Source: an uncultured Polaribacter sp. (lineage in GTDB: Bacteria > Bacteroidota > Bacteroidia > Flavobacteriales > Flavobacteriaceae). Taken from it: a DNA stretch of 54,062 nt. The DNA is taken from NCBI GenBank assembly GCA_913061165.1, contig CAJXTJ010000003.1, positions 1-54,062 of the forward strand. Direction: 5' to 3'. The position numbers were made by a program, and so were the translations under genes. Below are positions 8,474-54,062 of this stretch, piece after piece; the stretch's first letter is position 1, and every line of letters starts with the position of its first letter. The notes beneath the pieces were generated by a model. That model was given only the letters and a program-made list of their open reading frames with translations. It did not search any database and was not told where the DNA came from.

Positions 8474-10234
8474 ATGAAGTTAAAATTTTACATATCTCTA
8501 TTTATTTGTTTACTAAGTATTTCTTTAGTTGCACAAGAGGCAACCTTAAAGGCAAAGGTTAGTAAAAACAAACTAGGCGTAAACCAGCGTTTGCGTATAG
8601 AGTTTTCTATTGATAAGCAAGGAGGAGATAATTTCTCTCCACCAAAATTTACTAATTTTAAAGTTGTTGGCGGACCAAGTCAATCTGTTAGTCAATCTTG
8701 GATTAATGGAAAAGTAACCTTTTCCCAATCTTACACCTACATTATTCAACCCAAAAGAAAAGGAGCGTTTTCTATTGCAAGTGCATCTATAAAAATTGGT
8801 GGTAAATTTATAAAATCTGAACCTGTTAAAATAATTGTTTTAGATGCTGTAGAAATTCCTAAAAACCCAAATGACCCAAATTATGTTGCACAACAAAACA
8901 TTCATTTAGTAGCAGAAATATCTAAAGCCAACCCTTATGTTGGTGAAGGAATTTATGTAGAATATAGACTGTATGTAAGTGAAAATGTAAGTGTTTACGA
9001 TACTTCTATTTCAGAAGCACCTAAGTATAACGGTTTTTGGAATCAAGACATTAAAGTAAATGGTTTTCCAGTAAAAATGGGGAAATACAATGGGGAAAAC
9101 TACAGATATATTGTACTTCAAAAAGCACTTCTTATTCCAACAAAAACAGGAAAACTTTCTATAGATCCAATGAGAATGGATATTGTAATTGGAGTACCCT
9201 CTGGACGGGCAGATTTTTTCGGAAATGCAATCACCAAGAATATTAGACGAGAATTTGCTTCTACTAAAAAAATAATACGTCCTAAAGCACTTCCTTTAGA
9301 AGGAAAACCCGCAAACTTTTCAGGTGCTGTTGGAGACTTTAATTTTAATGTTTCTTTAAGCAAAGGTGTTTTAAAAGCAAATGAAACAAGCAAGTTAGAG
9401 TTGAAAATTTCTGGAAAAGGAAACTTAAATTTATTTGAACTACCAGATGTAGATACACCTGCAGAATTAGAAATGTACCAACCAGAAAGAAAAGAACGGG
9501 TGCGAATAAATGCAAATGGTATTTCTGGAAATGTAACAGACACGTACACTGTTGTTCCTTTATTTAAAGGGAAATACAAAATACCAAGTGTTTCTTTCTC
9601 TTACTTTAATCCTCAAGAAAAAAAATACAAAACAATTGCTACAGAAGATTTCTTTGTAGATGTGCAAGAGGGAAAAGAATTAATTACTGTAGATACTAGT
9701 TCTGTAAGAAAACAAGAAGTTGTTTCTACTGGAAAAAACTTTAGATACATCGCTACTAAAACTAATTTCATAGCTGCTAAAAAAATAGATTTTTTTAAAT
9801 CTAAGCTCTTTTATGTTTTATTTTTATTGCCATTAATTGTAATTCCTGTCGGAGTTTTTATTGGTAAGAAGAATGAAGAGAGAAGTAATGATATTATAGG
9901 TAATAAAGCTAGAAAAGCAGAAAAATTAGCTAAGAAATATCTTTCTAAGGCACAAAAACAATTGGGTAAAAAAGAAGCGTTTTATGAAGCCTTAGAGCGC
10001 GCTCTGCACAATTATCTAAAGGCAAAATTAGGCGTTGAAACTGCAGAAATAAGTAAAGAAAGAATTACCGAAATTTTAAAAGGTAAAAATGTAGAAGCAA
10101 CTGCAATTCACCAATTTATTGAAGTATTAAAAAATTCTGATTTCGCTCGTTACACACCTTTTACAGCAACTGAGATGAAAGAAGAATTTGAGCGTGCCAA
10201 AGCAGTTATTATCCAATTAGATAAACAGTTATAA
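8474..10234 (+). CDS. batD: BatD, oxygen-tolerance family protein
   Basis: BatD (oxygen tolerance) protein of 586 residues from ATG at 8474. The open frame begins one codon earlier at a TTG, but ATG gives a clean signal peptide (MKLKFYISLFICLLSISLVAQ). A long periplasmic beta-rich region with repeated immunoglobulin-like segments occupies about 22-430 (SINKQGG-like FSIDKQGGDNFSPPKF; ISGKGNLNLFELPDVD). One membrane span follows at about 448-464 (LFYVLFLLPLIVIPVGVFIG), then a cytoplasmic helical tail (LERALHNYLKAKLGVETAEIS). It is followed by batE after one base. It probably forms the envelope-facing part of the Bat complex. The function is inferred from the family. Confidence 0.92.
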   Translation: MKLKFYISLFICLLSISLVAQEATLKAKVSKNKLGVNQRLRIEFSIDKQGGDNFSPPKFTNFKVVGGPSQSVSQSWINGKVTFSQSYTYIIQPKRKGAFSIASASIKIGGKFIKSEPVKIIVLDAVEIPKNPNDPNYVAQQNIHLVAEISKANPYVGEGIYVEYRLYVSENVSVYDTSISEAPKYNGFWNQDIKVNGFPVKMGKYNGENYRYIVLQKALLIPTKTGKLSIDPMRMDIVIGVPSGRADFFGNAITKNIRREFASTKKIIRPKALPLEGKPANFSGAVGDFNFNVSLSKGVLKANETSKLELKISGKGNLNLFELPDVDTPAELEMYQPERKERVRINANGISGNVTDTYTVVPLFKGKYKIPSVSFSYFNPQEKKYKTIATEDFFVDVQEGKELITVDTSSVRKQEVVSTGKNFRYIATKTNFIAAKKIDFFKSKLFYVLFLLPLIVIPVGVFIGKKNEERSNDIIGNKARKAEKLAKKYLSKAQKQLGKKEAFYEALERALHNYLKAKLGVETAEISKERITEILKGKNVEATAIHQFIEVLKNSDFARYTPFTATEMKEEFERAKAVIIQLDKQL

Positions 10235-49947: not shown

Positions 49948-50304
49948 ACGTGACTTCGGCAATAAAAAAACCTAACTTTATTTAGTGCTCTGTATCGCCG
50001 AGGTTGCTGCTTCTTATAATTTAAGAAAAACTTTTAAAGAAAAAACTGAAGAATATTTTATTGAAGTAAGGTTCTAAAGTATAGAAATAATGGTTTCCTT
50101 TAACAAAATAGGTGTTTTATAATGTTCCCTGAGGTTCCAATTATTTCAATCAACATTAGAGATTTTGAAAATGCTACTTATTGTAACAAATCTATGGTGT
50201 AAAACAGTTATTAAAAAACCAAAAATATAAACCGTTGCAATAGAATGTATCTAATTTATTTCTTCATAAAAAACTTTATATTTCGTAAAACAATCCCTTT
50301 TCAT
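49948..50304. other. Intergenic stretch with possible degraded coding fragments
   Basis: This 357-base gap has no convincing gene. On the plus strand, a frame ending at about 50076 reads CIAEVAASYNLRKT and then a charged tail before a stop, and a 26-codon frame from 50122 reads MFPEVPIISINIRDFENAT before a stop. They look like gene remnants rather than random sequence, but I cannot name a parent gene. No tRNA or clear hairpin terminator was seen. Confidence 0.4.
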
Positions 50305-50760
50305 TTAAACAATCCCAATAATTTCAATAGTTTTCCCATTAAAAGAAATCACCTCTTTTTCTTGTTTCCCTAGCAACAATTTACCCATTGGCGAAGATAC
50401 TGAAATAGCAAAATAACTTTTATCTGCAACAACGAGTTGCCCTGCAGAAATGCTTAAGAAATAAGATACTTTAGCTGTAATAATAACGCTTCCTAAGCAG
50501 GCGTTTTTTGATGTTTTTAAAATATCAATTTTCGATAAGACAACTTTCATTTGAGTAATTCCCGCCAATTGCTGGCCTGCTTTTTCCATTTCTAATTGCA
50601 ACATCGCACGGCCGGTTTCATGTTTATCGCCTGCAGAACTCTTCGTCTCAGATTGCAATGCTTTTTGATTTGAAGAAATTACGTTTTCAATGTTATACAG
50701 CCTTTTATTTACAAACACCTCACATTGCTCAAAAAGCGCTTCTTTAATTTTTAGTTCCAA
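50305..50760 (-). CDS. GreA/GreB C-domain-like protein at the end of the PKS operon
   Basis: A 151-residue cytoplasmic protein. Residues about 28-75 form a helical or coiled-coil segment with KSSAGDKHETGRAMLQLEME. The C-terminal half (ISVSSPMGKLLLGKQEKEVIS, NGKTIEIIGI) resembles the C-terminal FKBP-like domain of GreA/GreB transcript-cleavage factors. No ketosynthase feature is visible. The start is TTG at 50760, overlapping the YceI stop by 17 bases; no in-frame ATG precedes the conserved part. It could bind RNA polymerase, but that is inference. Confidence 0.72.
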   Translation of the reverse strand: MELKIKEALFEQCEVFVNKRLYNIENVISSNQKALQSETKSSAGDKHETGRAMLQLEMEKAGQQLAGITQMKVVLSKIDILKTSKNACLGSVIITAKVSYFLSISAGQLVVADKSYFAISVSSPMGKLLLGKQEKEVISFNGKTIEIIGIV

Positions 50761-51283
50761 TATACTTCATTTTAATATTCACTTCCTTAGAAAGCACAAA
50801 ACTGCTTCCACCAACACCAAAATCTCTTCTGTTTAGAGAAAAATCAGTCAAAAATGTTACTTTGGTTATAGAGGTGGTTACATTTAATGTGGTTTCTACC
50901 CTTTTCTTAATTCCTTTAATGGTTATAAATCCTTTTAATAGATATTTAGCATTGGTTATTTTCTCTATTTCAGTAGATTCAAATACAATATTCGGGTACT
51001 TTTTAATATTAAAATAATCTGACTCTAATAAATGTTCATCTCTAGCTTCTGAGTCTGTATATATAGATGCTACGCTTATTTTTACATTCAAAAAACTTCC
51101 CTTTAAATTACGCGTGCTAAAATTACTGGAAACTATAAATTGATTAAAATTACCGGGTACGTTAAATCCAAAATTCTTTATGGTAAATGTAATTTCAGAG
51201 GCTGTTTTATCTTGCACCAACTCTTGTGAAAAACAAGTGAAAGCACCCAACACAAAAACCAGTACGATCCTTTTAAGTCTCAT
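50744..51283 (-). CDS. YceI-family lipocalin-like protein
   Basis: Periplasmic YceI protein of 179 residues with a signal peptide (MRLKRIVLVFVLGAFTCFSQ). The fold signature is clear: SEITFTIKNFGFNVPGNF, DSEARDEHLLESDYFNIKKYP and LTIKG-like KGFITIKGIKKRVETTLNV. YceI proteins bind long isoprenoid or amphiphilic lipids in a beta-barrel. Its place 7 bases after the phosphopantetheinyl transferase, inside a polyketide-type operon, suggests it may carry the lipid product or a precursor. Confidence 0.92.
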   Translation of the reverse strand: MRLKRIVLVFVLGAFTCFSQELVQDKTASEITFTIKNFGFNVPGNFNQFIVSSNFSTRNLKGSFLNVKISVASIYTDSEARDEHLLESDYFNIKKYPNIVFESTEIEKITNAKYLLKGFITIKGIKKRVETTLNVTTSITKVTFLTDFSLNRRDFGVGGSSFVLSKEVNIKMKYIGTKN

Positions 51284-51290
51284 AAATATA

Positions 51291-51863
51291 TTAAAATTTA
51301 GAACCTATGTTATAAGCATATGCTCCGTAATTTCCGTGATGAGAAATTGAGCATGATGTTGTTAATAATTCTTCTTTATAATAAAAAAGTGGCGCACCAA
51401 TAGTTGTTTTTCTTTTCTCTATACCTTTGCAAGAAACACCTGTTTCGGCTGCTAGTTTTATTTTTAAATCTAAATCTATTGTGCTCGCCAAACCAACTGC
51501 AAAAAAAATAACAGTTTCTTCTTTTTTTTCTCTGGCAATTGTAGATGTATAAAGTGCGTTAGAAATAGACTCTGTATAAAATGTGTTTTCTTCAAAAACT
51601 ACCATCCCTTTGTCTTTAGAAATTATAGTACACTCAAATTTTTGAGGAGCAAAAAAACGTTCTTTAAACTTCTGAGTGTAACATTTATAAGCCGCTTCTT
51701 TCATAGACCAGAACAACCAAACTTTTAAAAACGGATTTTCAGAACTTAAAATTTCGTCTTGCTCTTTTTGGGTAAATTGTTTCTCTAAAAAACCCTTTCG
51801 TTGCCAATTGCTTTGCGTTTTGGCAAGGTTTAAATCTACAATATCATTGCCAATATTATGCAT
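51291..51863 (-). CDS. 4'-Phosphopantetheinyl transferase superfamily protein
   Basis: Transfers the phosphopantetheine arm from coenzyme A to carrier-protein serines; 190 residues. GNDIVDL (Asp8 and Asp10 region) and the metal-binding WSMKEAAYK (Glu56, Lys60) define the family. The size is closer to the Sfp/AcpT side than to minimal AcpS. It overlaps the ACP gene by 8 bases, so the adjacent ACP is its likely substrate. Confidence 0.93.
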   Translation of the reverse strand: MHNIGNDIVDLNLAKTQSNWQRKGFLEKQFTQKEQDEILSSENPFLKVWLFWSMKEAAYKCYTQKFKERFFAPQKFECTIISKDKGMVVFEENTFYTESISNALYTSTIAREKKEETVIFFAVGLASTIDLDLKIKLAAETGVSCKGIEKRKTTIGAPLFYYKEELLTTSCSISHHGNYGAYAYNIGSKF

Positions 51864-52107
51864 TTATTTTTGTTTGTATAATCTCTACAGTTGCTTTTAC
51901 AGAGAGCATTTTCTCCATAGAATCGTTGTCTATTTCTATCTTAAACTCATCTTCTACATCTAAAATAATATCTACTAGATTTGCAGAATTTATTTCTAAA
52001 TCATTTATAAAATCTGTGTTTTCATTTAAGTTTTTAAAACCCTCTTCATTTTGAACATAAGGCTTTACAATTGTTGTTAATTTTGATATAATTTCTTCTT
52101 TTGTCAT
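51856..52107 (-). CDS. Acyl carrier protein of the PKS cluster
   Basis: A divergent ACP of 83 residues from ATG at 52107 (the frame is open twelve codons further, into the KS gene). The attachment Ser41 lies in LEINSANLVDI rather than the usual DSL, followed by the acidic helix VEDEFKIEIDND. It begins one base after the ketosynthase stop and overlaps the phosphopantetheinyl transferase start by 8 bases. It is distinct from the housekeeping AcpP at 35824-36060. Confidence 0.92.
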   Translation of the reverse strand: MTKEEIISKLTTIVKPYVQNEEGFKNLNENTDFINDLEINSANLVDIILDVEDEFKIEIDNDSMEKMLSVKATVEIIQTKINA

Positions 52108-52108
52108 A

Positions 52109-53398
52109 TTAATCTGAATATTTTTTAAAGATAACACACCCATTTACATCGCCAAAGCCAAAACTTGCTTTTGCTAAAATAGTAATGTTTTTTTCAATTA
52201 TTTGAGTTGGAATTTTATCATTAGAAATCAATGCTGAGATTTCTGGATGCACATCATCGCAATTAATGTTCGGAAACACAAATTGCCCTTTAACTTGTGC
52301 AACAGCTGCTACACATTCTATGGCTCCAGAAGCAGCCAAACAATGACCTACCATCGATTTTAAAGAATTAATATACGGAAAATATTTTCCTTTTCTTTGC
52401 AGTGCCTTGGTCCAATTTTCTATCTCTAAACTGTCTTTTGAAGTTGCTGTTAAATGCCCGTTAATTACATCTATTTCCGAAGAAGAAATGCCCGAATCTA
52501 ATACCGCATCTGTAATACATTTCTGAACCGCTTCTGAGTTAGGTGCCGTTAAGGTTCCGCCTTTTCGTTGTCCGCCAGAATTAATATTGCCTCCTAAAAC
52601 CTCTGCATAAATAGTAGCTTTCCGTTCTAAAGCACTTTCTAAAGACTCTAAAACCAAAGCTCCTGCGCCACTTCCTGGAACAAAACCCGCTGCAGTTGCA
52701 CTCATGGGTCTCGATCCTTTTTCTGGTGCTTCGTTGTGCTTATAAGACATTACGCGCATTGCATCAAAACCGCCCCAAGTATACAGACTGCTATCACTAG
52801 AACTCCCCACCAACATTCGTTTTGCTTTTCCGTTTTTAATGCGCTCAAAACCCAATAATAAAGCTTCTGTACCTGTTGTACAAGCAGAAGAATTTGTTGT
52901 AACCTGATTCCCAAATCCAAGAATTCCACCTAAATATGCTGAAATTCCACTTGCCATTGTTTGCACCACAGAAGTACTTCCTAAACGTCTTACATTCTGG
53001 TCGTCTATTTTATAAATAGCCTCTCTTAACTTTTCTATTCCAGAGGTTCCTGTTCCAAAAATTAACCCCGAATCATAATCTAATTCCGAATTTTCTTCTA
53101 CAGAAAAACCGGCGTCTTTCCAAGCGTCAATTCCTGCCATACAGCCATATAAAATTGAGCTGCTGTTAAACCCGCGCAATTGTAACGGTGATAAGTATTC
53201 TAATTTTTTTTCTTCTGAAATAATTGGAACTCCGCCAATACAGCAAGAAAAGCCCTTGTCTTTTAAATTCTGATGATAGGTGATTCCTGAAGTTCCTGTT
53301 TTTATTGCATTTGTAAACGCTGGCAAACCAACGCCATTCGGCGCCACAACTCCTAAACCGGTAATTACAACTCTGTTTTTCACTTCTGATAAATTCAT
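52109..53398 (-). CDS. Beta-ketoacyl synthase (KAS II type) of the PKS cluster
   Basis: Condensing enzyme of 429 residues. The triad is intact: Cys173 in NSSACTTGTEAL, His315 in NGHLTATSKDS and His352 in SMVGHCLAASGAIE. The motif around His315 (GHLTATSKDS) departs from the HGTSTPLGD of housekeeping FabF, and overall it is clearly a specialised paralog. It lies between the dehydratase (9 bases) and the ACP (1 base). It probably extends or makes an acyl chain on the cluster ACP. Confidence 0.94.
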   Translation of the reverse strand: MNLSEVKNRVVITGLGVVAPNGVGLPAFTNAIKTGTSGITYHQNLKDKGFSCCIGGVPIISEEKKLEYLSPLQLRGFNSSSILYGCMAGIDAWKDAGFSVEENSELDYDSGLIFGTGTSGIEKLREAIYKIDDQNVRRLGSTSVVQTMASGISAYLGGILGFGNQVTTNSSACTTGTEALLLGFERIKNGKAKRMLVGSSSDSSLYTWGGFDAMRVMSYKHNEAPEKGSRPMSATAAGFVPGSGAGALVLESLESALERKATIYAEVLGGNINSGGQRKGGTLTAPNSEAVQKCITDAVLDSGISSSEIDVINGHLTATSKDSLEIENWTKALQRKGKYFPYINSLKSMVGHCLAASGAIECVAAVAQVKGQFVFPNINCDDVHPEISALISNDKIPTQIIEKNITILAKASFGFGDVNGCVIFKKYSD

Positions 53399-53406
53399 TT
53401 CAGTCT

Positions 53407-53847
53407 CTATTTTGCGATGATCATTCCAGAAATAGTTCCCCTACAAACCAATTCATTTTTAGAATTTATCATTTTTACACGACACTTTAACTTGTTAAAT
53501 CTAAAATATTCTTTTTCTGAAATCACAGTTACTTTTTCATTTGGTAAAACAGGTACATAGAAATCAACCACATTAGATGTTAAGGCTATTTGTGGTTTTG
53601 TGGTTGTTGAAATTTTATCTTTTAGTAAAAATATTCCTAAACAAACAACGCCAATTTGTGCCATGGTTTCCGTTAAAATAACACCTGGTGTTATTGGGTT
53701 TTCCTTAAAATGACCTTCATAGAAAAACGCACTTTCTTTAAAGGTGTAATTTCCTGAAATACCACTTTCTGAAATTTCTGTAAGTTCATCAACAAACAAA
53801 AAAGGTTTTTGATAGGGCAGGTTTTTTATAATTTGTTTTGGATTCAT
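53407..53847 (-). CDS. FabZ-like hot-dog dehydratase of the PKS cluster
   Basis: A 146-residue hot-dog fold protein. The FabZ catalytic pair is visible as His46 in YEGHFKENPITPG and Glu60 in VILTETMAQIG. The N-terminus (KQIIKNLPYQKPFLFVDELTEI) also matches FabZ/FabA-type 3-hydroxyacyl-ACP dehydratases. It lies between the type III PKS (11 bases) and the ketosynthase (9 bases). The cluster has no ketoreductase in this window, so one must lie upstream or be shared from primary metabolism. Confidence 0.92.
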   Translation of the reverse strand: MNPKQIIKNLPYQKPFLFVDELTEISESGISGNYTFKESAFFYEGHFKENPITPGVILTETMAQIGVVCLGIFLLKDKISTTTKPQIALTSNVVDFYVPVLPNEKVTVISEKEYFRFNKLKCRVKMINSKNELVCRGTISGMIIAK

Positions 53848-53857
53848 TTTTATAATT

Positions 53858-54029
53858 TTACCACGCTAATAAAATACGTTGTGCAGAAAACCCTGGCCCA
53901 AAGCTTAACATTAAGCCTCGTTCTCCTTTGGCTGGATTTCTATCCATAAAACGCTCTAAAACATACAAAACTGTTGCGCTAGACATATTGCCGTACAGGC
54001 GTAAAACTTCTTTTGTATCGTCTATATTC
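53858..54029 (-). CDS. Type III polyketide synthase, C-terminal fragment
   Basis: The last 57 or so residues of a chalcone/stilbene-synthase superfamily enzyme, cut by the contig end. YGNMSSATVLYVLERF contains the region of the catalytic Asn (GNMSSA), and GLMLSFGPGFSAQRILL contains the conserved FGPG loop near the C-terminus. The Cys-His part is outside the window. Six residues, MCIRDR, before this fragment in the open frame are translated adapter, not protein. First visible gene of the PKS operon; type III PKSs condense malonyl units on acyl starters without a carrier domain. Confidence 0.88.
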
Positions 54030-54062
54030 CTGTCTCTTATACACATCTGACGCTGCCGACGA
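54030..54062. other. Nextera adapter read-through
   Basis: CTGTCTCTTATACACATCT (the Tn5 mosaic end) followed by GACGCTGCCGACGA. Together these 33 bases are the reverse complement of the Nextera read-1 transposase adapter. They are not genomic and should be trimmed. Confidence 0.97.

Follow-up and report, generated by a model that had tools for sequence, protein, structure and literature searches.

Type III polyketide synthases (T3PKSs) that work with carrier proteins or with ring-modifying enzymes have been described in several bacteria. The starters of ArsB and ArsC are reported to come directly from an acyl carrier protein (ACP) borne on a fatty acid synthase (FAS) (PMC6274091). In Streptomyces and Mycobacterium, the trio of T3PKS, methyltransferase, and flavin oxidoreductase is reported to make polyketide quinones (PMC9927152), and alkylresorcinol synthesis in Planctomycetota is described as including the same three functions (PMC10896814). 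According to the available text of a further study, HidC putatively starts from acyl-ACP and has Met at the CHS-Phe265 position, and CylI accepts ACP-bound chains (PMC8086630). T3PKS clusters make up 10.74% of the predicted biosynthetic clusters in one survey of Flavobacteriaceae (PMC10734526) and 9% in another (PMC7440613). No characterized product for a Flavobacteriaceae T3PKS cluster was found in the literature searched, and a search by title and abstract, with supplements outside its scope, found no account of the gene set described here, which may be in print elsewhere.

The DNA analyzed here (the window, 54,062 nucleotides from an uncultured Polaribacter sp.) holds the 3′ part of a conserved marine-bacterial operon of seven to eight genes. 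All seven minus-strand features were found where an earlier note on this DNA had placed them. The first (53858..54029) encodes the C-terminal 56 residues of a T3PKS and its stop codon (PF02797, 39 bits; cut-off 27); the catalytic Asn, in GNMSS, and the GPG loop both lie within this fragment, and the positions of the triad Cys and His fall past the contig end. It is followed by a FabZ-like 3-hydroxyacyl-ACP dehydratase (53407..53847; PF07977, 51.3 bits), which has His46 and Glu60 and scores under the cut-offs of the NCBIfam FabZ models, and by a paralog of the KAS II-type ketosynthases (KS; 52109..53398; PF00109, 89.4 bits; PF02801, 80.5 bits). The KS fits fabF best among the models (257 bits; cut-off 494); its Cys173, His315, and His352 are exactly as the note had them, and Lys347 is also present. 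The dedicated ACP (51856..52107; PF00550, 22 bits; cut-off 20.8) has its Ser41 in INSANLVD, a motif that is at least 98% conserved among 94 relatives and stands in place of the DSL usual in ACPs. A 4′-phosphopantetheinyl transferase (PPTase; 51291..51863; PF01648, 52.1 bits), a YceI-family protein (50744..51283; PF04264, 100.9 bits), and a protein of predicted Gre fold (50305..50760) complete the series. From the PKS to the Gre-like gene, the spacings are 10, 8, and 1 bases, an 8-base overlap, 7 bases, and a 17-base overlap; the first two had been given as 11 and 9, each one too many, and the others correctly. By their Pfam profiles, the window proteins are single-domain, not a multidomain type I FAS.

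In relatives, the gene order is flavoprotein, methyltransferase, T3PKS, an optional FabL-like enoyl reductase, FabZ, KS, ACP, and PPTase. Among 296 Bacteroidota genomes sampled evenly, 24/24 T3PKSs of this family sit in the order flavoprotein-methyltransferase-PKS-FabZ-KS-ACP, with all five partner genes beside them, and a PPTase was recognized in 21 of the 24. With the KS as anchor (best 80 of 217 loci), a PKS lies within 6 kb in 72 of the 73 loci that have at least 3.5 kb of sequence upstream. The locus sets may share species and cluster phylogenetically, so these counts are not independent events. The linkage of the T3PKS with the dehydratase, KS, and ACP, on which the note had built its reading, is thus borne out from both anchors, and the conserved-neighborhood search that it had proposed did not turn up the PKS unlinked from these genes in other genomes. 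The methyltransferase and oxidoreductase that it had suggested looking for upstream are present in relatives, where they adjoin the T3PKS in all 24 family loci and in the ORFs of relative L019. The flavoprotein is geranylgeranyl-reductase/UbiH-like; the model that it fits best, for the geranylgeranyl reductase superfamily, gives 109.7, below the cut-off of 158.8, so the protein could be a reductase rather than a hydroxylase. Inside the core operon, no further gene families were found to recur, and no malonyl transferase or ligase was found to be conserved. FabZ, KS, or ACP genes of the operon kind were found in 0/36 neighborhoods of more distant T3PKSs (the best-scoring 36 of 64 hits, 7 of them short at contig ends). 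A methyltransferase match occurs in 6 of these 36, two of which also match the flavoprotein, and the trio is therefore more widespread than the elongation set.

A ketoreductase, another enzyme that the note had suggested seeking, is not conserved in the cluster; the reductase present in many relatives is FabL-like. This SDR, encoded between PKS and FabZ, was considered as a ketoreductase and dropped, as its best fit is FabL. Two of its sequences score 149.7 and 141.2 bits with FabL versus 119 and 93 bits with the best other NCBIfam model, values under the FabL equivalog cut-off of 328 that make it FabL-like only. The catalytic motif, Tyr-x6-Lys, aligns with that of the enoyl reductase 3oic and is conserved in 53 sequences; among PDB matches, 3oic scores 80.0 bits and a gluconate dehydrogenase is nearly equal at 77.4 bits. 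The FabL-like reductase was not found in the window’s own genome. A transposase-like ORF that can lie between PKS and FabZ was ruled out as a replacement for the reductase, since one locus (L045) carries both. That polyene chains are made where the FabL-like reductase has been lost is speculation, because housekeeping enoyl reductases can substitute.

The gene content, order, linkage, and conserved motifs of the operon, and the status of its flanks, are observed directly; its chemistry we infer. With somewhat better than even confidence, its product would be a phenolic lipid that derives from an alkylresorcinol, is methylated and probably also hydroxylated (hydroquinone- or quinone-type), and has its chain built on the operon’s own ACP by a discrete (type II) elongation set, much as in the Ars system of Azotobacter. 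The PPTase would prime the ACP, on which the KS and FabZ would elongate an acyl chain, aided by a ketoreductase from housekeeping metabolism and by an enoyl reductase that is the cluster’s own where present and otherwise likewise a housekeeping enzyme. The ACP-built chain would then pass to the T3PKS as a starter, malonyl units would be added, the polyketide would cyclize, and the ring would be decorated by the methyltransferase and the flavoprotein. Against a direct hand-over, the chain could reach the PKS through CoA via housekeeping enzymes. A more far-reaching version, which we put forward tentatively and hold to be on the unlikely side, is that a discrete type II FAS (ACP, PPTase, KS, and dehydratase) feeds the T3PKS directly and yields a methylated alkyl-quinone, a second redox lipid of the envelope beside menaquinone, carried by YceI or lipocalin proteins and with the unsaturation of its chain set by retention of the FabL-like enzyme.

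A full-length relative of the T3PKS, from P. irgensii, matches PF00195 at 75.6 bits and PF02797 at 73.1 bits, and conservation of Cys141, His275, and Asn308 across 97 relatives is 98% or higher. In agreement with the intact residues noted earlier, 98% or more of aligned rows keep the active-site motifs, not only of the PKS but also of KS, FabZ, and ACP. By our own mapping, the CHS-Phe265 position is Met in 97/97 family T3PKSs, and the position matched to ArsB Trp281 is Phe in all 97. An aromatic residue at the latter has been tied to aldol cyclization in ArsB and in an ArsC mutant (PMC6274091). It is nevertheless a weak test of the product, because Pks11 carries Trp at this position and CylI, which is said to lead to alkylresorcinol (PMC8086630), carries Leu. 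It is rather improbable, in our judgment, that the T3PKS lactonizes its polyketide, so that the operon would make (methylated) alkylpyrones instead of resorcinols or quinones. The best-scoring solved structure for the T3PKS, at 183 bits, is Pks11, which by its title concerns alpha-pyrone synthesis, and the position by which ArsB and ArsC are told apart holds neither Trp nor Gly here. The reported tie to aldol cyclization nonetheless argues for a resorcinol, albeit that Pks11 shares an aromatic residue there, and a ring-modifying flavoprotein would be better suited to a resorcinol.

Rather than building the starter, KS, FabZ, and ACP might also act after or beside the PKS and supply another chain for attachment to the ring, like that of dialkylresorcinols or flexirubins. 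Flexirubin and aryl-polyene clusters also contain KS, dehydratase, and ACP genes, and there are weak matches to the flexirubin SDR FlxB (75 bits; cut-off 340) and to DarB (22.5; cut-off 550). However, as judged from gene listings rather than from a DarA model, the core operon of the loci listed has no recurrent gene of the DarA, acyltransferase, or ligase kind, and the T3PKS is the sole PKS-like gene of the operon in these loci. We consider such a second chain to be quite unlikely and retain the starter role for the ACP-built chain.

The flank of the operon is more variable. The note had counted YceI in the cluster, and this holds insofar as it is a recurrent neighbor but not as a core gene: it is optional, adjoining the operon in 27/104 loci (80 named KS-anchored loci, the best 80 of 217, and 24 PKS-anchored loci). 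Its N-terminus has, by eye, a hydrophobic segment resembling a signal peptide, and proteins of the YceI type may serve as envelope carriers of the product. The Gre-like protein, labeled “3-oxoacyl-ACP synthase” in NCBI records, gives a weak profile match (E 0.0017); in Pfam, PF01272 scores 21.1 bits, under the cut-off of 26.9, and PF03449 is not listed at E 0.001. Its AlphaFold model (mean pLDDT 92.9) has Gfh1, GreA, and GreB as its top five PDB fold matches, the first three at E < 0.001, with TM scores of 0.31-0.61, and predicts a Gre fold with a coiled-coil hairpin and a C-terminal domain. Besides this predicted fold, an acidic AGDK-x-E, invariant at the tip of the hairpin, links the protein to GreA, GreB, and Gfh1; it differs in a C-domain that falls under the Pfam cut-off and in having no N-domain match listed. 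In the same genome, a GreA N-domain above cut-off occurs in another protein.

A functional or regulatory part for the Gre-like protein in the pathway, as implied by the note, now seems very improbable. The gene overlaps YceI by 17 bases here and adjoins the operon in 65 of the 80 named loci (best 80 of 217), 33 times upstream and 32 times downstream, and could therefore be co-transcribed. Yet it is found in 17/18 genomes without a detected cluster, including 13/13 of the same genus (the latter defined by no PPTase match, and the five same-family genomes by no PKS match at 1e-40). At 12 of the 13 operon-free sites of the same genus, it follows a DAO-type oxidoreductase gene, once with YceI between, and it lies away from the operon in 18 of the 22 family genomes carrying both. 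It is probably an unrelated resident neighbor, and a misleading clue is thereby removed from the cluster.

The note had also held that the PKS is truncated by the contig edge and that the start of the cluster is missing, and both points stand. Bases 54030-54048 match the 19-base Nextera/Tn5 mosaic end exactly (none expected from 100 shuffles), and all 33 bases of 54030..54062, on the minus strand as annotated, are presumably a left-over Nextera/Tn5 sequencing adapter. The T3PKS is reduced to its last 56 residues because the contig ends in this untrimmed adapter, and since the fragment ends exactly there, the cut is a library or assembly artifact, and nothing here marks the PKS as the pseudogene that the note had raised. 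Relatives L018 and L019 align with the window up to base 54029, from 50705 at 93.9% identity and from 50288 at 90.1% identity, respectively; PKS, methyltransferase, and flavoprotein genes are present in both, and the PKS ORF of L019 is complete at 350 residues. A search of the window’s own assembly found neither the remainder of the PKS nor the methyltransferase; beyond the fragment, there were only matches of 23-31% identity, which we read as FabH-like. No inverted repeats were found at the contig end, and we assume that the missing 5′ part is an assembly gap at the adapter. That the PKS is a decayed remnant, or is associated with its neighbors by chance, has a negligible probability: the fragment alone is present in the assembly, but it terminates exactly at a sequencing adapter, near-identical neighborhoods run on unbroken in L018 and L019, and the gene order is kept in 24/24 family loci.

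From a wider perspective, T3PKS clusters have already been counted in surveys, and here one conserved kind is defined, with a testable logic. One testable question is whether a discrete carrier-protein elongation set feeds a T3PKS; a second is whether the product serves these abundant marine bacteria as a lipid of the envelope or in redox reactions.

Among known systems, the ars locus of Azotobacter vinelandii is described as encoding the T3PKSs ArsB and ArsC with their own acyl-building carrier-protein FAS, ArsA/ArsD, and the operon described here likewise links a T3PKS to acyl-building genes of its own. The ars FAS is a large multidomain type I (PUFA-synthase-like) enzyme, whereas KS, FabZ, FabL, ACP, and PPTase are discrete here, with a methyltransferase and a flavoprotein in addition; transfer from ACP to PKS has been shown for ars and is proposed here. 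T3PKS, methyltransferase, and oxidoreductase or hydroxylase genes are reported together, as here, in pkqABC of Mycobacterium and Streptomyces and in srs of S. griseus. Unlike the present operon, these are three-gene machineries, and the available descriptions mention no KS, dehydratase, ACP, and PPTase set. The cyanobacterial hierridin genes hidABC and the planctomycete operon match the trio by function and are reported to have alkylresorcinol products; the accessible text describes no elongation set of their own, unlike here. The hidABC order, like that given for the planctomycete operon, is methyltransferase-oxidoreductase-T3PKS, in contrast to flavoprotein-methyltransferase-T3PKS in 24/24 loci here. 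Further likenesses are the Met at the CHS-Phe265 position, in HidC as in the family here by our mapping, and, in “S. ferox”, genes for a lipid/isoprenoid-binding protein and a lipoprotein that lie ahead of the PKS. Finally, the cylindrocyclophane-type CylA-K system has type I PKS elongation, an AMP ligase, a halogenase, and an alkylating enzyme, none of which was seen to recur in the core operon here, but its described sequence of a free-standing ACP, carrier-protein elongation, and then a T3PKS runs parallel to the pathway that we propose.

The link between the type III polyketide synthase (T3PKS) and the dehydratase, ketosynthase (KS) and acyl carrier protein (ACP) genes, proposed in the earlier note, was supported by a conserved-neighbourhood search anchored on either enzyme. 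A T3PKS match at E 1e-40 was found in 88 of 296 evenly drawn Bacteroidota genomes; 24 of these enzymes were 66-82% identical to that of P. irgensii, and the remaining 64 were 28-37% identical. We examined the neighbourhoods of all 24 close T3PKSs and of the best 36 of the 64 distant ones. The order flavoprotein, methyltransferase, PKS, FabZ, KS, ACP was observed in 24/24 close-family neighbourhoods, with a phosphopantetheinyl transferase (PPTase) recognised in 21. FabZ, KS or ACP of the operon kind occurred in none of the best 36 of 64 distant neighbourhoods; six of these had a methyltransferase match, two of them with a flavoprotein as well. In the KS-anchored test, 73 of the 80 named loci had at least 3.5 kb upstream, and in 72 of the 73 a PKS lay within 6 kb. 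The exception, L081, has a flavoprotein gene that leads directly into the KS gene near position 10000, without methyltransferase, PKS or FabZ, reflecting either a deletion or an assembly error. At another relative's locus, L138, the operon consists of seven genes flanked on both sides by opposite-strand genes. These two tests and L138 together define the operon core as flavoprotein, methyltransferase, PKS, FabZ, KS, ACP and PPTase.

In the window, re-inspection of genes and domains located all seven minus-strand features where the earlier note had placed them (50305-54029), and a residue check found KS Cys173, His315 and His352 exactly as claimed; the first two spacings had to be mended, from 11 and 9 to 10 and 8 bases. 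Lys347 is also present in the KS, His46/Glu60 in FabZ and Ser41 in the ACP. The contig closes with 33 bases (54030-54062) that we take to be an untrimmed Nextera/Tn5 adapter, the 19-base mosaic end of which matches exactly, with no such match expected by chance. Because the contig terminates in adapter, its longest terminal ORF is partly an adapter translation. The PKS is cut by the contig end, and the fragment bears no evidence of breakage. A search of the source assembly (2.30 Mb, 230 contigs, the window being C3) recovered neither the remaining PKS nor the methyltransferase.

The missing 5′ part is supplied by close relatives. On the KS tree, the window adjoins two metagenome-assembled genomes (loci L018 and L019), followed by P. 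irgensii. L019 is 90.1% identical in nucleotides to window 50288-54029 and carries a complete PKS of 350 residues; by our assignment of ORF roles, the DAO-type FAD oxidoreductase (DAO) and flavoprotein ORFs overlap by 8 bases and the flavoprotein and methyltransferase ORFs by 1, with a gap of 68 before the PKS. In P. irgensii the corresponding proteins have matches to DAO, to a geranylgeranyl-reductase/UbiH-like flavoprotein, to a methyltransferase and to a T3PKS. The methyltransferase and oxidoreductase for which the earlier note proposed a search are thus present in L019 and P. irgensii; a ketoreductase, named with them, is not conserved, none having been seen as a conserved operon gene across the relatives' loci. 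L018 is 93.9% identical to window 50705-54029; its alignment stops inside the Gre-like gene, and a search of the locus gave no match to that gene.

Many relatives carry an SDR of ~265 residues between PKS and FabZ. For two of these proteins the top NCBIfam model was the FabL enoyl-ACP reductase, at 149.7 and 141.2 bits, below the cut-off of 328, with the next-best models at 118.6 and 93.5 bits. The top PDB match was an enoyl-ACP reductase (80.0 bits), gluconate dehydrogenase being barely behind (77.4 bits); the SDR and that reductase share Tyr-x6-Lys, the spacing of enoyl reductases. The FabL-like gene is present in 56 and absent from 46 of 102 scorable loci, with seven changes on a quick KS tree, at least three on well-supported branches. 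It occurs in 6 of 16 same-genus genomes with a PPTase; the top SDR match in the genome that holds the window was 30% identical. In several Polaribacter, including L024 (PF01797, 32.8 bits), an IS200-like (Y1) transposase ORF lies between PKS and FabZ; L021, L025, L026, L034, L037 and L045 have transposase-like ORFs, judged solely from similar starts.

The Gre-like gene (50305-50760), which the earlier note counted within the cluster, is probably a resident neighbour. It overlaps YceI in the window and could be co-transcribed with the operon there, but it is not tied to it, being present in 17 of 18 genomes in which no cluster was detected. It was found in 22 of 24 family genomes, within the fetched PKS neighbourhood in just 4 of the 22. 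Of the 80 named loci, 32 have it downstream of the PPTase and 33 upstream of the flavoprotein, while in the other 15 it was not seen. At operon-free same-genus sites, DAO directly precedes it in 12 of 13 (no DAO was seen at the thirteenth, L233), and an opposite-strand ABC gene follows in 10 of 13. The 12 include L224 (genome G029), where YceI stands between the two though the operon is absent, possibly as a remnant of a lost operon. Its occurrence without the operon and the conserved DAO-Gre site mark both DAO and the Gre-like gene as resident flanking genes, irrespective of whether the operon was gained by insertion or lost. Genome G144 holds both an operon preceded by two YceI genes (L135, contig C7) and a DAO-Gre-ABC site without one (L238, contig C1).

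The Gre-fold family is widespread in Bacteroidota and separate from canonical GreA; the GreA domain match of the window protein falls below the Pfam cut-off. AlphaFold, run on an alignment of 32 relatives, predicts a helical hairpin and a C-terminal domain with a mean pLDDT of 92.9; the top five PDB fold matches of the model are Gfh1/GreA/GreB, three at E < 0.001, and a profile search retrieves Gfh1 (E 0.0017). Gre factors have an acidic hairpin tip, which the family's invariant AGDK-x-E at that place resembles. It is possible that these proteins are an uncharacterised secondary-channel factor of RNA polymerase; their NCBI label, '3-oxoacyl-ACP synthase', probably stems from the neighbourhood.

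A YceI gene stands next to the operon in 27 of 104 loci, after the PPTase in 5 and before the flavoprotein in 22, and each of eight genomes examined has 3-9 YceI genes. Upstream of the operon in L152 and L154 are genes for a lipocalin-like protein and for a member of the OmpA family with glycine zippers, and these two gene families also precede it in L155 and L156. In the planctomycete 'S. ferox', lipoprotein and lipid/isoprenoid-binding protein genes precede methyltransferases and a T3PKS, according to the portion of PMC10896814 available. YceI or such proteins may plausibly act as carriers, though YceI is not adjacent in 77 of the 104 loci.

All 97 family T3PKSs have Met at the position that we take, by CHS numbering, to be Phe265-like, and Phe at that matched to ArsB Trp281/ArsC Gly284; of 36 distant Bacteroidota T3PKSs, 35 have Trp at the latter position and one has Phe. 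The mapping rests on a Pks11 alignment and the nine-residue spacing of ArsC Gly284/Met293 in the available part of PMC6274091, in which an aromatic residue accompanies aldol cyclisation in ArsB/ArsC. Since this position is Trp in Pks11, a pyrone enzyme by its title, and Leu in CylI, the Phe may point to aldol cyclisation only weakly. Because ArsB/ArsC and CylI accept ACP-bound starters, as the accessible text of PMC6274091 and PMC8086630 respectively has it, a hand-over from ACP to T3PKS would be plausible here by analogy.

T3PKS clusters have been tallied in surveys of Flavobacteriaceae (PMC10734526, PMC7440613, in the sections available), and operons that combine T3PKS, methyltransferase and oxidoreductase in a set of three genes are described from Actinobacteria, Cyanobacteria and Planctomycetota in the accessible portions of PMC10896814, PMC9927152 and PMC8086630. 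Within the available text of the literature searched, we found no description of such an operon joined to a discrete KS/DH/ACP/PPTase set, with or without the FabL-like gene. We consider this set an apparently new element added to the known T3PKS-methyltransferase-oxidoreductase operon type.
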